From: an uncultured Bacteroidales bacterium
Lineage (GTDB): Bacteria > Bacteroidota > Bacteroidia > Bacteroidales > Bacteroidaceae
Assembly: GCA_945787885.1 (NCBI GenBank)
Contig: CALZJF010000022.1
Span: 1 to 37,700 of the forward strand
Length of the DNA stretch: 37,700 nt
Direction: 5' to 3'
Part shown: positions 3,117 to 31,057 of the stretch, in pieces
How the letters are laid out: every line of letters starts with the position of its first letter
How positions within the stretch are numbered: position 1 is the stretch's first letter
Translations under genes and position numbers: made by a program
Notes under the pieces: model-generated
Seen by the model: the letters and a program-made list of their open reading frames with translations, nothing else
Databases searched by the model: none
What the model was told of the DNA's origin: nothing

Positions 3117-3167
3117 AAGTAGGCCATGGAAATTAGTTTTGCTACAGCTAATTTTCATTACCTACTT
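3117..3167. repeat. Dispersed 3'-flank repeat, copy 1 (short hairpin form)
   Basis: Inverted repeat: left arm 3117-3136 (AAGTAGGCCATGGAAATTAG), 11-nt loop, right arm 3148-3167 (CTAATTTTCATTACCTACTT). The arms pair at 17 of 20 positions. It lies 66 nt past the stop of the FHA gene on the minus strand and is followed there by ATTATT, so it may act as its terminator. The same 20-mer recurs at 10330, 19267, 23861 and, in a diverged form, at 29931/30090. Confidence 0.85.
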
Positions 3168-10267: not shown

Positions 10268-10349
10268 TTTCAAGACTAAAACCTGCATCCAAACAGAGCA
10301 TTCAAACAAATTCACCTATTATCAGATGACTAATTTTCATTACCTACTT
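10268..10349 (-). repeat. Dispersed 3'-flank repeat, copy 2 (half element)
   Basis: Ends in the exact 20-mer CTAATTTTCATTACCTACTT (10330-10349), 14 nt past the stop of the minus-strand acyltransferase gene. The preceding stretch (10275-10308, from ACTAAAACCTGCATCC) matches the reverse complement of 29956-29989 at 31 of 34 positions, and 'TTTCAAGACTAAAA' at 10270 matches the right half of the long copy at 29931-30103. Confidence 0.8.
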
Positions 10350-18369: not shown

Positions 18370-19224
18370 ATGAGACGACTCTCTTATCTATCTATATCTA
18401 TAAAAATATTATTATTATTATTTATATTATTGTTAATATTATTATTTAGGGGCGGTTCGCTCTCGGTCTTGGCTGCTGCTGCTACTACTCCCTACGATGC
18501 TGACCGCAATCGGTCTGTGCGGAAGGTTTTGCTCCAGCCGGAAGCTCTGCCACGCCCAGCAAACAAAGAGCGCGTCGTTTGCATACAGATGCCCGTGCTG
18601 AATGTGAAGCCGCATGCAGGCAGAGTACCCCTTGTAGAGGGAATTGATGTGAGTCATTATCAGGGACGAATCGACTGGGGCAGAGTGGCTACGGAGGGCG
18701 GAGCCAAATATGCTTATGTGAAAGCTACGGAGGGAGGCGATATGGCCGATGAATACTATTCCTATAACATTCGCGAGGCAAAGGCTGCCGGACTTCTTGT
18801 GGGGGCCTACCACTTCTATCGTCCGCAGCGCGGCGTCGATGCCAACTTCAAGAATATGGTTTCCGTCATTAAGCGTCGAGACATCGATCTCCTGCCGATT
18901 ATTGATGTTGAGACTGTGGGAGGAGTGAGTCGCGAACAGTTTATTGCCGACCTTCAGCAGTTCGTGAAGCGTGTGGAACGGCATTATGGATGCCCCCCTA
19001 TGCTTTATACCGGACAGAACTTTTACAATAAGCATTTTCAGGGTGTCCTTACCGACTATTGTTGGATGATAGCAAAATATCAGGAGGAACCGCCTATTTT
19101 GCTCGATGGCCACATTCCCTGTATGTGGCAATACACGCAGCACGGCAGTGTGTCGGGCATAAGGGGGAATGTTGACCGATCGCGACTGCTGAATGGATCG
19201 CTACATCATTTGAAGATCAAGTAA
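18370..19224 (+). CDS. GH25 family lysozyme (muramidase), paralogue 1
   Basis: 284 residues. The N-terminal hydrophobic segment (about 12-36, 'IKILLLLFILLLILLF') is coded by an AT-only run of ATT/TTA-type triplets and acts as a signal or anchor. The GH25 barrel starts at ~88: 'VEGIDVSHYQGRIDW' with Asp93, 'YAYVKATEGGDMAD', 'GLLVGAYHFYRP', and the catalytic 'PIIDVE' with Asp179/Glu181; it ends 'MWQYTQHGSVSGIRGNVDRSRL'. The enzyme cleaves the MurNAc-GlcNAc bond, probably in self-wall turnover. The window has a second copy at 30161-31057. Confidence 0.92.
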   Translation: MRRLSYLSISIKILLLLFILLLILLFRGGSLSVLAAAATTPYDADRNRSVRKVLLQPEALPRPANKERVVCIQMPVLNVKPHAGRVPLVEGIDVSHYQGRIDWGRVATEGGAKYAYVKATEGGDMADEYYSYNIREAKAAGLLVGAYHFYRPQRGVDANFKNMVSVIKRRDIDLLPIIDVETVGGVSREQFIADLQQFVKRVERHYGCPPMLYTGQNFYNKHFQGVLTDYCWMIAKYQEEPPILLDGHIPCMWQYTQHGSVSGIRGNVDRSRLLNGSLHHLKIK

Positions 19225-19240
19225 ATGTTGGGTAATAAGT

Positions 19241-19286
19241 AGTAGGTAATGAATCTTAGTGCAGAACTAATTTTCATTACCTACTT
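19241..19286. repeat. Dispersed 3'-flank repeat, copy 3 (hairpin, probable terminator)
   Basis: Left arm 19241-19259 (AGTAGGTAATGAATCTTAG), 7-nt loop, right arm 19267-19286 (CTAATTTTCATTACCTACTT), followed by TTT. It lies 16 nt past the GH25 stop, so it could terminate the panB-GH25 transcript. It also forms the left flank of the DUF262 gene pair. Confidence 0.85.
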
Positions 19287-19573: not shown

Positions 19574-21892
19574 TTATTCTACACTTTCAGTAATTTCAAA
19601 CGCTTCCAAGAAATGATCAATCAAAGCGATAATATAATCATTCATGGATGTTCGATCTTCATCTGTCAAATGATGTTTGTCTTTATTGTAATAGTTACCA
19701 ATGAAGGCTATTGGATATAGTGGGCTGTCGAGGTATTCCCGGACTTTCCAGTCATATTTATTTTTTGCAGGGAAAATGGTGTAACTCCAAGAATAACCTA
19801 ACAAAACATTTCCCCATGAGAAATCATCAGAAGGGATAATATTATTATCAGGAAGATTCTTGTATGCTGACACAGCTCTATCTCTGAAATAATCAAGTAA
19901 GTAACCTTCAGAAGTAGCTTTCAGGGTCTTTAATGTAAGCCATGATTTGATTAGTTCAATATGGTCATTTGGAGATTTTATATAATCCTTAACCTTCAGG
20001 AATACATAATTCTTTATGTAAGACAGCATGTCAGGAGCTTCCAACAATCTTTCAACCTGTGGTGATTCCAGCCACCAAGGAGAATCTGGGAGTTTTGAAA
20101 AATAGCATCCTTCAAAGTCATAAGAGCAATAAGGTATATGACCAAAATTGACAAGACCAGATACGACCCGGAATAGTCTAAACCAGTTAGCAAGCTCGTA
20201 GTCGGATTCTTTAGTTCTGCTCCTATGAAGAGCACTACACAATTGGTTTATCTTCATGTATCTGTTAGATAACATTTCGTACGTTATGGTAGCGGTGTCA
20301 ACGGATTTCCATAATGGTGTAATATCCCCCATAAGATACTCGTTATCTTCCCACTGATTGACAGATTCTGCATAGCCATCCTTGCGGAGCTTATCCTTTA
20401 TTTGTTCCTCCTCATCATACCAAACTGGCAGAGATATTAGTGGAATCTTTGTAATGGATAACTCCGATATGTCAGCATTCAGAAGGTTTTCATCTGAAGT
20501 CTGGTTGATGATTTGAACAAGGTAACGCCAGTCCATCCTGCTGTTGGCTCTTCTTGTCAGCTCTCCTTGCTCATTTTTAGACCAAACTAAGTCAAAATAG
20601 TTTCTTCTTAGACGTCTTGTGAAAGGAACTAATAACTGGGTGCCCTTGTGCTCGGCCAATAATGTAATCAGTGGAAGTACAATATCCAAGTCGCAGTTAC
20701 GCAGCCAGTTCCATACGGAGCTTGTATTTGAAAGACTAATATTTGAACCTTTCTTCTTAACGTGCATACTCAACAATATACCACGTAATTCTCCATTGTC
20801 AACAATAGCATCAACAAGTTCTTTTAATGCAAGGAAATATTTGTTTATATTGTCAAGAGAACAGAATTTCTTATAGTTGTCAAAACTCAACTTTATCTCA
20901 TTTGCATTCTCTGTAATTTTTGTCGGGGCACTTACAAAAAGTTCACGAGGGTTCAAGGAAACAGGTTTTCCATCCTTCCACGCTTTCTCTTGCATCAAGC
21001 CTATTTGCCAATACCAGATAAAGAACTCATTCAGTCCATTGTCAGCAGTATTATCTTTACCTCTATTCTGCCAAAACCATTCTTCTCGTTCTTCCCATTG
21101 GTCTGAATAAGTCTCAATCTCTTGTTCGGACAAAGACGGTTTTCCTAAAAGTATAGGTTTGATGTTTTCAGTGGAAGACAAGGGCTCTCCTGTAGTGTTA
21201 ATGACTACATATGTTTCTTCGCCTCTTGAACGGTTTCCCATATCATAATACAGAACCTTCAAATTGTTCAAAACAAACTTGCCAAAGTCAACGAAATCTA
21301 TATGATCATTTTCTTTAAGAACATCATCTATTCTTTGAAGAGCAGAAACCATACTTTGAATAGAAGCATCAAAATCATATTCATTAAAATACCAGCTTGA
21401 AGCCTTAATATCTGTAATGGACGTGTTTTGCGAAATAAAAACATTACGAGCTAAATCACTCAAAAAATACAGTGTACTTTCCCGGATGGCATATTGTAAA
21501 TGTGGCTCAAAATCATCGTTTCGTTCTTTCTTTGATATTAAATAATCATCAAAGCAACCTCTTGCTTTGGTATTTATTACGCCCAACAGTAAGAAAAGCG
21601 TAGTTAATCTCTGCTGACCATCGCATATCTGTATATGATTATGAGGTTGCTCATAACCATAGACCAATCCCATCGTTAAAATGGTGTTAGACTCATTCTC
21701 AAAAAGGTCTATAATATTTTTAACGAAATCTGTGACAAGTTCTCTTGTTTTTTTTGACTTCACGTCAACAACAGCCTTATCACCCCAGCAATAATCGCGC
21801 TGAAGGTCTGGAATAATGACCTTTGTATTTCCTCCAAACAAATCGGAAAGTGAATACTCATTTCCGCTTATGAAACTGACAACTCTATTCAT
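19574..21892 (-). CDS. Large DUF262-domain protein (second gene of a DUF262 pair)
   Basis: 772 residues. The N-terminal DUF262 (ParB/Srx-like fold) has 'IIPDLQRDYCWGDK' (26-39), 'ICDGQQRLTTLFLLLG' (89-104) and 'EETYVVINTTGEPLSSTENIK' (225-245). The rest (about 250-772) is helical and aromatic-rich, with no convincing DUF1524/HNH motif; a terminal 'FIGNYYNKDKHHL' only faintly recalls one. The start overlaps the end of the upstream DUF262/HNH gene by 8 bp, showing tight coupling. DUF262 proteins include GmrS/GmrSD, BrxU and SspE, where this domain binds NTP and controls DNA cleavage. Composition is visibly more A+T-rich than the neighbours. A defence role is inferred. Confidence 0.85.
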   Translation of the reverse strand: MNRVVSFISGNEYSLSDLFGGNTKVIIPDLQRDYCWGDKAVVDVKSKKTRELVTDFVKNIIDLFENESNTILTMGLVYGYEQPHNHIQICDGQQRLTTLFLLLGVINTKARGCFDDYLISKKERNDDFEPHLQYAIRESTLYFLSDLARNVFISQNTSITDIKASSWYFNEYDFDASIQSMVSALQRIDDVLKENDHIDFVDFGKFVLNNLKVLYYDMGNRSRGEETYVVINTTGEPLSSTENIKPILLGKPSLSEQEIETYSDQWEEREEWFWQNRGKDNTADNGLNEFFIWYWQIGLMQEKAWKDGKPVSLNPRELFVSAPTKITENANEIKLSFDNYKKFCSLDNINKYFLALKELVDAIVDNGELRGILLSMHVKKKGSNISLSNTSSVWNWLRNCDLDIVLPLITLLAEHKGTQLLVPFTRRLRRNYFDLVWSKNEQGELTRRANSRMDWRYLVQIINQTSDENLLNADISELSITKIPLISLPVWYDEEEQIKDKLRKDGYAESVNQWEDNEYLMGDITPLWKSVDTATITYEMLSNRYMKINQLCSALHRSRTKESDYELANWFRLFRVVSGLVNFGHIPYCSYDFEGCYFSKLPDSPWWLESPQVERLLEAPDMLSYIKNYVFLKVKDYIKSPNDHIELIKSWLTLKTLKATSEGYLLDYFRDRAVSAYKNLPDNNIIPSDDFSWGNVLLGYSWSYTIFPAKNKYDWKVREYLDSPLYPIAFIGNYYNKDKHHLTDEDRTSMNDYIIALIDHFLEAFEITESVE

Positions 21893-23681
21893 TGTTATCT
21901 TGTATGTTATAATCCTTTTTAAATCTTTCTATGAACAAATCTGCATTAGTTTCAATCTCTTCAATGTCCCATTTGCTACTTGCGAATGATGAGATTGTAT
22001 GTAGCAGATTGCGGCTCTCAAACGTTCTTTCGTTATGGAAGAACTTGAATTTCTTCTCCTCGAACGGCAGGTTGCTAAATTCGGAGTTGTTCTTACCATA
22101 TAACAAAACAAGATTGCCTATACAGTGTTCGCTATATTTGGATGGATTAGAAAATTCCGTATCAGAGTTTCTCAGATTTTTTGCTTTTTCTAATGTGATT
22201 TCTGTGCCATCCCCTCGAACAAACCGTATTTCTTGTGTCTCTTCGTTCACAACCGAATGGTAGAACATTGATTTTGGGTAGATATGTTCCAATGACTTGT
22301 TGTCCCAGATAGAAAAATCAAACTTTACACCTTTATTATCGTTCAGTCTGTTGTATTCAATGACATTAAGACGTAGCAACTGTTTGTATGCCTCAGAATC
22401 AATAACATTATACACATGAGGCTTGCAGAACTTTTCAAGTAAATTCCTTGCACGTTCGCTTCTGCGTTGTTCGTTGGAAACACGTTGATTCTCATTTTTT
22501 AGGTCAATAGTAAATTCTTCTGTTATTTCCTTATGAGTTGACCCAATCAGCCTCCATCGTGAATATTCTTCCAGCGTTTTGTAGTTTCGCTTATTGACAA
22601 TGAAGAACATAATTATATTATACTTGTCTTCTGCATCACCATTAGAAGAAATCATAGCTAACTTCAGATTATTGAAAGAAAGAGGATTGTTGAATATATC
22701 TTCAAAATCTTTCTGCAAATCTCTCAATCCCTTGAAGACCTCTTTGGCTTTTCTCTTATCGCCATCAGGAAGCAGTTGTTTGAATGTTTTGAATGAAAAA
22801 CTCTCATTGTGGTTATACTTAATGAAATAGTATTCAAGTAACAATCCCATAGGCTTTTTAGTATTGAAGAATGATGAAACATCATCTCTATACCACCAAT
22901 AAAGCCATTTATCCCATTCACGAGCATATTTACTACGGAGAGCATTTGTTTCCCAGTCAACTGCGACAATCTCCTGAAGTATAGCATATGTGTCATCTAT
23001 AGTCTTAATGGCGGGAACACCGTTGAGTGTGTCTGGCAAAGAGATGATGTGAAGAATCTCTGCTTTAACAAGTTCCTCGTCGTGCATAGCAGCCTTTTGA
23101 CCATTCATCATTGTGAACGTTCTTACAGCCTTTGAACGACTGATTACTATGTATAAAAGGCTAATCTTGTTTAGAAGGTAATTCAAGAAGCCAAGACGTT
23201 CTTCTATGGCAGGCAACTTGTCGTTAATTTGTTTTATCGCCTCCTTGAAATAGTAGATGTCTTGTATTTTGTTGTCCTCATCAAAAGAGTTATAATCAAA
23301 ATCCGGATCTTTCAATCTTGCGATAAAATCCCTTGACAGGGTGCGAATAGAATAATCAAGATTTATATCTTTGTTTCCACTGATGTTTTCGCGTCCCAGA
23401 CACCACAATAACAAATATATGGTTGTTGTTCGTTGCTGTCCGTCAATTAGAATGATATTTTCACTGTCTTCTACTACAGTTACACCTTGCAAGAAATATT
23501 GCTGTGTTGGGTTACTGTGAAAGGCATTCAGCAGACTGGATAATAGATATTCAACTGACGTTTCTTCTTTACCATTTCTCACAGACCATTTATATCCCCT
23601 CTGGTAATTGGGGATGATGAATTTTTTCTTTCCATTGTCTGGATAAAGATATTCTTTCAGTGTTTTGAAATTTGTTGCCAT
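21885..23681 (-). CDS. GmrSD-like DUF262 + DUF1524 (HNH-type) protein
   Basis: 598 residues from an ATG. The N-terminal DUF262 has 'IIPNYQRGYKW' (22-32), 'ILIDGQQRTTTIYLLL' (77-92) and 'FTMMNGQKAAMHDEELVKAEIL' (189-210). The C-terminal DUF1524-type nuclease has 'SLEHIYPKS' (His466) and 'EHCIGNLVLLYGKNNSEFSN' (518-537), the EHxxP ... IGNL ... NS..SN pattern of the HNH fold. This is the single-chain layout of type IV enzymes that cut modified DNA (GmrSD, BrxU) and of SspE. It is first in a two-gene minus-strand operon with another DUF262 protein. The DNA is A+T-rich against its surroundings. The target modification cannot be told from sequence. Confidence 0.88.
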   Translation of the reverse strand: MATNFKTLKEYLYPDNGKKKFIIPNYQRGYKWSVRNGKEETSVEYLLSSLLNAFHSNPTQQYFLQGVTVVEDSENIILIDGQQRTTTIYLLLWCLGRENISGNKDINLDYSIRTLSRDFIARLKDPDFDYNSFDEDNKIQDIYYFKEAIKQINDKLPAIEERLGFLNYLLNKISLLYIVISRSKAVRTFTMMNGQKAAMHDEELVKAEILHIISLPDTLNGVPAIKTIDDTYAILQEIVAVDWETNALRSKYAREWDKWLYWWYRDDVSSFFNTKKPMGLLLEYYFIKYNHNESFSFKTFKQLLPDGDKRKAKEVFKGLRDLQKDFEDIFNNPLSFNNLKLAMISSNGDAEDKYNIIMFFIVNKRNYKTLEEYSRWRLIGSTHKEITEEFTIDLKNENQRVSNEQRRSERARNLLEKFCKPHVYNVIDSEAYKQLLRLNVIEYNRLNDNKGVKFDFSIWDNKSLEHIYPKSMFYHSVVNEETQEIRFVRGDGTEITLEKAKNLRNSDTEFSNPSKYSEHCIGNLVLLYGKNNSEFSNLPFEEKKFKFFHNERTFESRNLLHTISSFASSKWDIEEIETNADLFIERFKKDYNIQDNNE

Positions 23682-23860: not shown

Positions 23861-23935
23861 AAGTAGGTAATGAAAATTAGTTTTATGTTTGAATGGCCTA
23901 TTTGGGTACAGATTGCCAACTATCATCCACAAATT
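23861..23935 (+). repeat. Dispersed 3'-flank repeat, copy 4 (half element)
   Basis: Begins with AAGTAGGTAATGAAAATTAG (23861-23880, exact). It continues 'TTTTATGTTTGAATG...CTATTTGGG', matching the left half of the long copy (29951-29975). It lies 84 nt past the licD stop on the minus strand and forms the right flank of the DUF262 pair, in inverse orientation to the right arm at 19267-19286. Confidence 0.8.
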
Positions 23936-29930: not shown

Positions 29931-30103
29931 AAGTAGGTAATGAAAATTATTTTTATGTTAGAATGTTCTATTTGGATGCAGGTTTTAGTTTGTGCTATGT
30001 GAATGTTTTCAAGGCTAAAAGATGCGCCAAAGAGAGCGTTCAAACATAAAAACCATAAAATAAATCTTGCTGTACTTACTATAAAAAAATTCATTACCTA
30101 CTT
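29931..30103. repeat. Dispersed 3'-flank repeat, copy 5 (long, MITE-like palindrome)
   Basis: About 173 bp. The left end AAGTAGGTAATGAAAATTA (29931-29949) is mirrored by TTCATTACCTACTT (30090-30103). The inner left part (29951-29989) is mirrored by 30014-30050 ('GCTAAAAGATGCGCC...GTTCAAACATAAAAA'). It fills most of the gap between pfp and the second GH25 gene. No coding capacity; no clear target-site duplication seen. Confidence 0.8.
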
Positions 30104-30160: not shown

Positions 30161-31057
30161 ATGACGACATCAAAACCTATCCGCAAGAAAAAGGGAAATA
30201 CGCGTAGAAAGAAGAAAGGGAGTGGGCAAGGATGGCTGCCACGTGTGAGAAATCTGCTGTTTGGCAATCGTTACAAACGTGTATTCTGGGTGGCTGCAGT
30301 GTGTATCACCCTCTTCTACATCTTTCTCTTCTATACTTTTTTAGTCATACCTTCTTCAGTGCGTAGCAGATGGCTTGCGCTTTATGGCGATATTTCTTAC
30401 CCTGCGGGGTATAGCATCCACGGTATAGATGTCAGTCACCATCAGGGACGGATAGACTGGAAACGAGTGGCAGAGGCAAAGGTGAACGATGAGCCTATTG
30501 TGTTCGTCATCATCAAAGCTACAGAGGGGAAAAGCCTGCTTGATGAGAATTTTAATGATAATTTTTATCAAGCGCGGGAGTATGGACTTGTGCGTGGAGC
30601 CTATCATTATTTTACTCCCTCGGTGAAAGGGAAAATTCAGGCTCAGTATTATCTGCACCAAGTTCATCTCGATGAAGGCGACCTTCCGCCTGTGTTGGAT
30701 GTGGAGGAGCGCGGAAAACTGTCGTGTCAGGAATTGCAGCGAGAAGTCTTGGAATGGTTGCGTATAGTAGAGGAGTGCTATGGAGTGGCTCCTATTATAT
30801 ATACAGGACTGAAATTCAAGGAAGCCAACCTTTCTACTCAAGAGTTCGCTAAATATCCCTTCTGGATAGCGCATTATTATGTAAAAGAGGTGGGTTATAA
30901 AGGCGAATGGCGTTTTTGGCAGCATACTGACTTAGGTCAGGTGGATGGTATTCGTGGGCCAGTTGACCTCAATATCTACAATGGTTCGATGTATGATCTC
31001 CGACAACTAACTATTGGAAAAGGCGAAGAACCCATAGAGGAAGATTCCGCAGAATGA
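30161..31057 (+). CDS. GH25 family lysozyme (muramidase), paralogue 2
   Basis: 298 residues. The N-terminus is strongly basic and cytoplasmic (PIRKKKGNTRRKKKG), then one membrane helix at about 41-63 makes it an anchored type II protein. The GH25 barrel follows: 'IHGIDVSHHQGRIDW' (Asp90), 'VIIKATEGKSLLDENF', 'GLVRGAYHYFTP', 'LPPVLDVEE' (Asp180/Glu182), 'IYTGLKF', 'FWIAHYYV', and 'FWQHTDLGQVDGIRGPVDLNIYNGS'. Likely a wall-remodelling enzyme held at the inner membrane. It is clearly related to paralogue 1 but has a different N-terminus. Confidence 0.93.
   Translation: MTTSKPIRKKKGNTRRKKKGSGQGWLPRVRNLLFGNRYKRVFWVAAVCITLFYIFLFYTFLVIPSSVRSRWLALYGDISYPAGYSIHGIDVSHHQGRIDWKRVAEAKVNDEPIVFVIIKATEGKSLLDENFNDNFYQAREYGLVRGAYHYFTPSVKGKIQAQYYLHQVHLDEGDLPPVLDVEERGKLSCQELQREVLEWLRIVEECYGVAPIIYTGLKFKEANLSTQEFAKYPFWIAHYYVKEVGYKGEWRFWQHTDLGQVDGIRGPVDLNIYNGSMYDLRQLTIGKGEEPIEEDSAE

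Follow-up and report, generated by a model that had tools for sequence, protein, structure and literature searches.

A DUF262 gene pair of an uncultured Bacteroidales bacterium as a probable distant branch of the GrwAB kind

The gene pair and its setting

The window, that is, the whole stretch of 37,700 nucleotides that was analysed, contains two co-directional genes on the minus strand, to which all gene, domain and motif coordinates given below refer. Gene A (GrwA-like; 21885..23681) encodes a 598-aa protein that is composed of a DUF262 domain, a linker and a C-terminal DUF1524 His-Me (HNH) nuclease domain, and it has a counterpart in 94 pairs. Gene B (GrwB-like partner; 19574..21892) encodes a 772-aa protein with a DUF262 domain and a C-terminal region of ~490 aa. 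The end of A overlaps the start of B by 8 bp (21885..21892), which may provide translational coupling, and since A is the upstream gene of the pair, the nuclease gene is transcribed first. The original prediction gave the coordinates, the lengths and the overlap exactly and placed the motifs DGQQR, EHIYP/His466 and IGNL correctly, and its division of labour between a DUF262 + DUF1524 protein and a DUF262 protein without a nuclease was borne out by Pfam, which detects GmrSD_N in both and GmrSD_C in A only.

In A, the GmrSD_N (DUF262) domain spans aa 17-209 (23055..23633; Pfam E 2.2e-22) and includes DGQQR at aa 80-84 (23430..23444), for which the published counterpart in GrwA of Vibrio cholerae is R81. 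The GmrSD_C (DUF1524) nuclease domain occupies aa 433-584 (21930..22385; Pfam E 9.1e-10), with EHIYP at aa 465-469 (22275..22289), where His466 corresponds to the published H431 of GrwA, with IGNL at aa 521-524, and with the His-Me motif residues Asn523 to Asn532 (22086..22115), whose published counterparts N521 and N530 have the same spacing of 9. DGQQR is invariant in three alignments of A homologues, its arginine is present in 91 of the 94 A proteins and falls in a gap in the remaining 3, and the nuclease H, N and N are all kept in 94/94, with an N-N spacing of 9 in 93 proteins and of 10 in one. The invariant DUF262 residues of the A alignments are Q27 R28, D80-R84, F189 and N193, and GmrSD_C was detected in 21 of the 22 A proteins scanned and missed in one. 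The H-to-N spacing varies between 17 and 158 across the family and was therefore dropped as a discriminator. Among solved structures, window A alone had no match with the E cut-off at 1 and a single one with the cut-off at 10, namely 7dri_A, a DUF1524-domain chain (E 1.3); a profile of 22 A proteins matched six solved sequences, including SspE and a 9jfl chain.

The GmrSD_N (DUF262) domain of B covers aa 15-248 (21149..21850; Pfam E 1.3e-22) and contains DGQQR at aa 91-95 (21608..21622), the published GrwB counterpart being R86, and this motif is invariant in two alignments. Q31 R32, D91-R95 and N232 are invariant in the B alignments, and Y228 (not F) is nearly so. No nuclease domain was found in B, and Pfam returned no GmrSD_C there at E up to 1. 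The C-terminal region harbours a conserved block (aa 434-522; 20327..20593), where alignments of 62 and 58 homologues show hardly any variation at R434, N438, E496, E515 and G522; an alignment of the C-terminus only (n = 18) has an invariant G522, with E496 and W570 nearly so. Window B itself aligns weakly in this block, and its C-terminus scored 11.0 bits, over partial length, against a profile of the family from which its own clade had been left out (best shuffle 8.3 bits); with the same profile, the clade mates L061 and L080 reached 63 and 58 bits. This divergence from the wider B family is a trait of window B and not of the whole clade. The idea that B is a decayed copy of A was rejected, as the profile-profile alignment of B with A covers DUF262 only (B 11-279), and the B C-terminus searched alone against A found nothing. 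In addition, B had no match in the phage collection.

The pair has a foreign composition, being AT-rich in the midst of housekeeping genes. GC content is 36.1% in A and 36.8% in B versus 44.7-54.3% in the 17 other window genes measured, in agreement with the predicted A+T-richness relative to the neighbours, and GC3 is 0.38 and 0.35, respectively, versus 0.42-0.65 in the other window genes. The description of the pair as interrupting housekeeping genes is upheld by one close relative, G727, in which the flanks dnaJ-grpE-ABCF-panB-GH25 ... LicD-ispD are collinear at 74-95% protein identity, and the A-B slot is taken by a different ORF of 317 aa, oriented like A-B, which, read by eye, resembles an EamA-like transporter. 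The A-B genes were probably acquired. At the left border of the pair lies a 47-bp palindrome (19240..19286) left over from a MITE-like repeat that occurs throughout the genome, and at the right border a single terminal repeat of the same element (23861..23880, minus strand). These border repeats were rejected as the ends of a pair-carrying element, because the repeat is genome-wide and its orientation is opposite to that of an enclosing element. An Rfam scan of the window found nothing, and a Bacteroidota promoter consensus had one match in the window, close to chance expectation and not upstream of A.

Pairing of A and B across genomes

Co-occurrence was surveyed in one scan of genome contigs, with 80 named loci among the matches listed. 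These loci comprise 71 with both genes, 1 with a fused ORF, 6 with a partial or frame-split A upstream and 2 starting inside B; 78 of the 80 were decidable, and A or an A remnant lies directly upstream of B in all 78. Both genes are present in 94 pairs, one member being short or cut in 8 of them; L084, in which A is frame-split, comes on top of these. A is directly upstream of B in the 94 pairs, of which 62 overlap and 32 have a gap of 0-50 bp. Among the loci recruited by B similarity alone (n = 55), A was found upstream of 25/25 B-type ORFs, with profiles that had been trained on pairs from partly the same genomes. The matched pairs come from many bacterial groups, and relatives also occur on plasmids and viral contigs, where A followed by B was seen at 15 of the 79 viral-contig loci.

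The two proteins show correlated evolution. The A and B distances have a correlation of 0.83 (the largest of 2,000 permutations gave 0.33), a value that fits co-function and simple co-inheritance alike, and the nearest neighbours of A and B agree in only 55/89. In the tree, the A proteins form one clade (89/89, support 0.84) and the B proteins another (94/94, support 0.99), and both are separate from the 8 DUF262 proteins used as outgroup; the support of the B split is 0.994 on the tree as built, and midpoint rooting displayed 0.354 and 0.994. In 82 of 88 loci the pair has a higher AT content than the flanking sequence. Furthermore, some relatives are embedded in type I R-M operons, and hsdS and/or hsdR directly adjoin the pair in 11 of the 80 eligible loci (7 with both), versus 0 of 20 control loci.

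A two-component module, as originally predicted, is thereby well supported. Its assignment to GmrSD-like defence, which was part of the same prediction, is supported by the fixed-order pairing, the correlated trees, the conserved catalytic residues, the occurrence on plasmids and viral contigs and the R-M embedding.

A putative modification-dependent nuclease and the alternatives

The two proteins are probably the subunits of a type IV restriction module of the GrwAB kind, one that depends on DNA modification. Produced from one overlapping operon, A and B would probably form a complex, by analogy with GrwAB, and their two DUF262 domains would bind nucleotide, hydrolyse it and recognise a chemical mark on the DNA of an incoming phage, which would license the His-Me nuclease of A to cut that DNA. 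B would supply the second DUF262 domain and a large, family-specific C-terminal region, which would probably, as a matter of conjecture, set target recognition and hold the complex together. In the original prediction, the large partner was put forward as a sensor or regulator. The need for both proteins and the dependence on modified DNA are likewise expected from GrwAB, and any exact modification named as the one that is read would be a guess. As the C-terminus of window B has diverged even from its clade mates, its target may differ. A rather speculative extension, which we regard as doubtful, treats the B C-terminus as a recognition module that changes quickly: DNA modifications found in phages of this host, and invisible to V. 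cholerae GrwAB, may then be read by the A-B complex, with the nuclease half unchanged.

Alternatively, A might act by itself as a complete, single-chain nuclease similar to GmrSD/BrxU, and B, instead of contributing to recognition, might restrain it in an antidote-like manner or block phage inhibitors of A. A does carry the full single-chain GmrSD layout, the two-gene GmrSD of ECOR17 is reported to be toxic when both genes are induced (PMC12373910), and the evasion of phage inhibitors has been raised as an option by the authors of TgvAB and GrwAB (PMC11411939, PMC12137116). This is nonetheless unlikely, given that both genes are reported to be required in GrwAB (PMC12137116), TgvAB (PMC11411939) and ECOR17 GmrS1/GmrSD2 (PMC12373910), and that B keeps its DUF262 motifs. 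Moreover, the GrwB R86A variant is reported to lose activity (PMC12137116), which suggests that GrwB is more than a passive accessory in GrwAB.

The distribution of the pair is patchy, B-type genes being present in 5 of 58 congeners, and frame-split A copies occur elsewhere (L099, L126, L084, L101), both of which would fit a pair that is intact and no longer functional, or that targets plasmids rather than phages. In the window, however, both ORFs are open over their full length and keep the alignment-invariant DUF262 and His-Me residues, and such a state of the pair is quite improbable. Sensing of DNA phosphorothioation, a mark on self DNA, in the manner of SspE is more improbable still: among solved structures, SspE and an 818-aa DUF262 protein come closest to B, but these matches lie mainly in the DUF262 domain, and the DndB and DndC models had no match in the host genome (91% complete), in a search that lacked a positive control, as the cut-off was not reached in any of the 14 control genomes. 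The least probable reading, a pair of the TgvAB or ECOR17 GmrS1/GmrSD2 type, has in its favour that just one of the two DUF262 proteins carries a nuclease and that both kinds lie between hsdS and hsdR in some genomes, but it was rejected on the reversed gene order (nuclease gene second) and, from one representative pair (L165), on a 472-aa partner versus 772 aa in window B, DUF262 domains that the tree places in neither the A nor the B clade, and similarity to the A and B family profiles that is strong only in DUF262. L165 is an hsdMS-embedded E. coli plasmid pair with an EH at 582-583, in agreement with the published GmrSD2 residues.

The published tests consulted on two-gene GmrSD-like restriction were confined to cholera and E. 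coli systems. The A-B pairs gathered here make it easier to test why a complete-looking nuclease needs a second DUF262 protein, a question that arises from the GrwAB and TgvAB papers, and the conserved, unnamed block in the B C-terminus offers a defined starting point for mutational and structural studies.

Relation to described DUF262 systems

Single-chain GmrSD, BrxU (HEC-05), HEC-06 and SspE are described as one-protein systems (PMC4619093, PMC10952713, PMC11411939). They share the DUF262-linker-DUF1524 layout with A, but A has a DUF262 partner gene in the window, in the 94 pairs and at 25/25 B-type loci. PADLOC models also matched A and B, with the best stretches located in the DUF262 domain.

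GrwAB, described in V. cholerae in 2025, consists of a DUF262 + DUF1524 gene followed by a DUF262 partner and acts on phages with modified DNA, and its escapers were published alongside the mutants; the long C-terminus of GrwB has no assigned function (PMC12137116). Like A-B, it has two co-directional genes, with the nuclease gene first and a DUF262-only partner with a long C-terminus second, DGQQR in both proteins, and an H...N...N arrangement with the two N nine residues apart. The latter spacing is non-discriminating, because it is also 9 in the TgvB-like protein of L165. As deduced from the published residue numbers, the R-H, H-N and N-N distances are 350, 90 and 9 in GrwA versus 382, 57 and 9 in window A. 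Recognition of V. cholerae GrwAB by residue spacing was abandoned, as none of the 94 A proteins matches the exact published GrwA spacing and no Vibrio is among the 80 loci listed. The layout and the published residues, rather than an alignment to GrwAB, would place the pair on a distant branch of the GrwAB kind. The original prediction knew of no named system with exactly this pair, which does not hold at the level of kind, since GrwAB has the same gene order and domain layout; at that level, the match to a named system that the prediction listed as refuting it does exist. To conclude, the arrangement already has a name, GrwAB.

Architecture of the gene pair and its slot

Gene A (21885..23681, minus strand, 598 aa) carries the Pfam domains GmrSD_N (DUF262) and GmrSD_C (DUF1524), and is followed, after an overlap of 8 bp, by gene B (19574..21892, minus strand, 772 aa), in which Pfam recognizes GmrSD_N only. 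The original prediction of a two-gene DUF262 module was exact in its coordinates, lengths, overlap and domain content, and the higher A+T content that it ascribed to the pair is borne out by a GC of 36-37% (GC3 0.35-0.38) versus 45-54% (0.42-0.65) in 17 other measured genes of the window. An NCBIfam search returned no match for B and, for A, nothing above chance level, and the best stretches of the PADLOC-DB 2.0.0 matches of both proteins lie within the DUF262 domain. Pfam detected GmrSD_N in 22/22 A and 22/22 B proteins and GmrSD_C in 21 of the 22 A proteins, with no further family present in more than one of the 22 B proteins, and profile comparison confines the homology between A and B to the DUF262 domain. 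The window pair is a real, full-length two-gene putative restriction module.

The C-terminal region of B contains the near-invariant residues R434, N438, E496, E515 and G522 (window numbering). The window copy is diverged in this region: a profile from which its clade was left out gives it 11.0 bits (best shuffle 8.3), compared with 63 bits for L061 and 58 bits for L080, two members of that clade. The nearest relative of the window B (L060:5126-6145) is 57% identical over 324 aa; it is only 339 aa long, ends near the contig end and may be truncated.

The genes around the pair are ordinary chromosomal genes. In G727, a genome of the same genus, the flanks occur in window order (dnaJ, grpE, ABCF, panB, GH25 ... 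LicD, ispD and three further genes) with 62-96% protein identity, and a 317-aa transporter-like ORF (L190:6517-7470) sits between GH25 and LicD in place of A-B. This alternative occupant comes from one genome, and no LicD or ispD match was found near the GH25 gene in the other 19 stretches fetched. Elsewhere in G727 (contig C33) there is an A-B pair, different from that of the window. The GH25-LicD slot is variable, and the window module was probably acquired. The window has two GH25 (lysozyme-like) genes, at 18370-19224 and 30161-31057, less than 13 kb apart.

Two remnants of an abundant repeat bracket the pair; copies in the window lie at 3117-3167, 10330-10349, 19240-19286, 23861-23880 and 29931-29950. 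Its 20-base terminal sequence occurs 112 times in the 2.7-Mb genome with at most 2 mismatches (reversed control, 0). Most of nine longer copies (L210-L218) are 194 bp long, with inverted ends and TA on their flanks, which we take to fit a Tc1/mariner or IS630-type MITE.

Co-occurrence of A and B

Loci were collected by similarity to B from genomes, plasmids and named genome contigs, giving 106 entries (the window, L060-L084 and L085-L164). Both genes are found in 94; in eight, A is incomplete or the contig ends, and in three (L079, L082, L083) there is a lone DUF262 protein that does not belong to the B type. In the one remaining entry, the Victivallis MAG locus L162, a 1262-aa ORF (L162:1878-5666) encodes an A-like protein continuous with most of a B-like one; this fusion could be either natural or an assembly error. 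L079 represents a third DUF262 gene in the window's own genome (G000, contig C23, 2703-4520); its 605-aa product has no nuclease domain by Pfam, and there is no paired gene in the 12 kb read.

The search for pairs was confined to the region upstream of B, and the two genes overlap in 62 of the 94 pairs and are separated by 0-50 bp in 32. In some of these pairs one member is not intact: there is a short A in L087, L101 and L149, a frame-split A in L084 and L101, a short B in L060, and a B interrupted by the contig end in L123, L125, L127 and L146.

A survey of the two families had been suggested by the original prediction, and their co-occurrence proved consistent. The best 80 of at least 99 confirmed genome-contig relatives include 71 with both genes, one fusion, two with a frame-split A (L099, L126) and four in which, close to the contig end, A is represented by its C-terminal portion alone (L139, L159, L164 and L106, where B is also split); two start within B (L102, L161), therefore A is present in 78/78 decidable loci. 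Since the genome-contig query was made from paired B proteins, loci from searches with the window B only were also checked. The 55 best-matching loci from two such searches, weaker matches being left out, comprise 25 B-type loci, 4 A-type, one without a match and 25 of other kinds, and A lies upstream in all 25 B-type loci. The profiles behind this classification had been built on pairs, part of which derive from these genomes. Three of the other kinds (L029, L032, L047) have an adjoining second DUF262 ORF of neither A nor B type, and possibly represent further two-gene DUF262 arrangements. A followed by B was also found in 15 of the 79 viral-contig loci retained, two of which (L220 and L264) look identical in sequence. 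Judged by genomics, the A-B pair is one unit.

Correlated evolution, distribution and genomic context

The DUF262-domain tree contains 191 domains, namely 89 of A, 94 of B and an outgroup of 8 (one TgvA-like, one TgvB-like and six other DUF262 proteins); 5 of the 94 A proteins (L072, L084, L087, L101, L155) were excluded because of a short DUF262 match. All A domains form a single clade (support 0.84) and all B domains another (0.99), both apart from the outgroup. Furthermore, patristic distances in the A tree track those in the B tree across 89 pairs (Pearson 0.83; largest of 2,000 permutations 0.33), the nearest neighbour is the same in both trees for 55 of them, and in each tree the window clusters with G018, G175 and a Segatella hominis plasmid (0.997 and 1.0). 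The relatives include Prevotellaceae records, which suggest a Bacteroidales host for the window.

Within the genus, 11/58 genomes have a B-profile match and 5/58 a B-type gene, with A upstream in each. Patchy occurrence is typical of defence genes. Among the 88 loci that offer 3 kb or more of flanking sequence, 82 have a pair richer in AT than that sequence. Of the 80 loci in which 700 bases or more were available on each side, 11 have an hsdS-like gene as immediate upstream neighbour, an hsdR-like gene as immediate downstream neighbour, or both (9 hsdS, 9 hsdR, 7 both). The queries, confirmed by Pfam as HsdS or HsdR proteins, came from six of these 11; none of 20 GH25 control loci has such a neighbour. 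The window pair itself lies outside any R-M operon. The commonest Pfam neighbours are WYL-domain regulators, with 9 of 118 neighbour proteins hand-picked from 171 of at least 170 aa.

Comparison with known systems

DUF262/GmrSD proteins are covered, in the available parts, by two reviews (PMC12409362, PMC10952713) and a family study (PMC4619093); among open-licence papers, none joining GmrSD and Prevotella was found. TgvAB (PMC11411939) and ECOR17 GmrS1/GmrSD2 (PMC12373910) are two-gene systems which, in the accessible sections of these papers, have the reverse gene order to the window pair. An E. coli plasmid pair of this kind (L165) is arranged as hsdM-hsdS-472 aa-677 aa-hsdR, with EH at 582-583, the position given for GmrSD2 in the accessible text (PMC12373910). 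A TgvAB/ECOR17-type identity was rejected for the window pair, as the L165 proteins fall outside the A and B clades and the order is reversed.

The original prediction knew of no named system with exactly such a pair; as regards the kind of system, one exists in GrwAB of V. cholerae, which has the same gene order and domain layout in the available portion of its description (PMC12137116). According to the same portion, protection requires both genes and is lost when the DGQQR arginine of GrwA or of GrwB, or the GrwA nuclease residues, are changed; escaping phages are altered in DpdA, a DNA-modifying enzyme; and a survey yielded 471 hits, in about 1% of genomes (PMC12137116). The kind of system is thus already known, and the window branch is unstudied in the open-licence literature searched. 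By gene order and domain layout, the window pair is best described as GrwAB-like.
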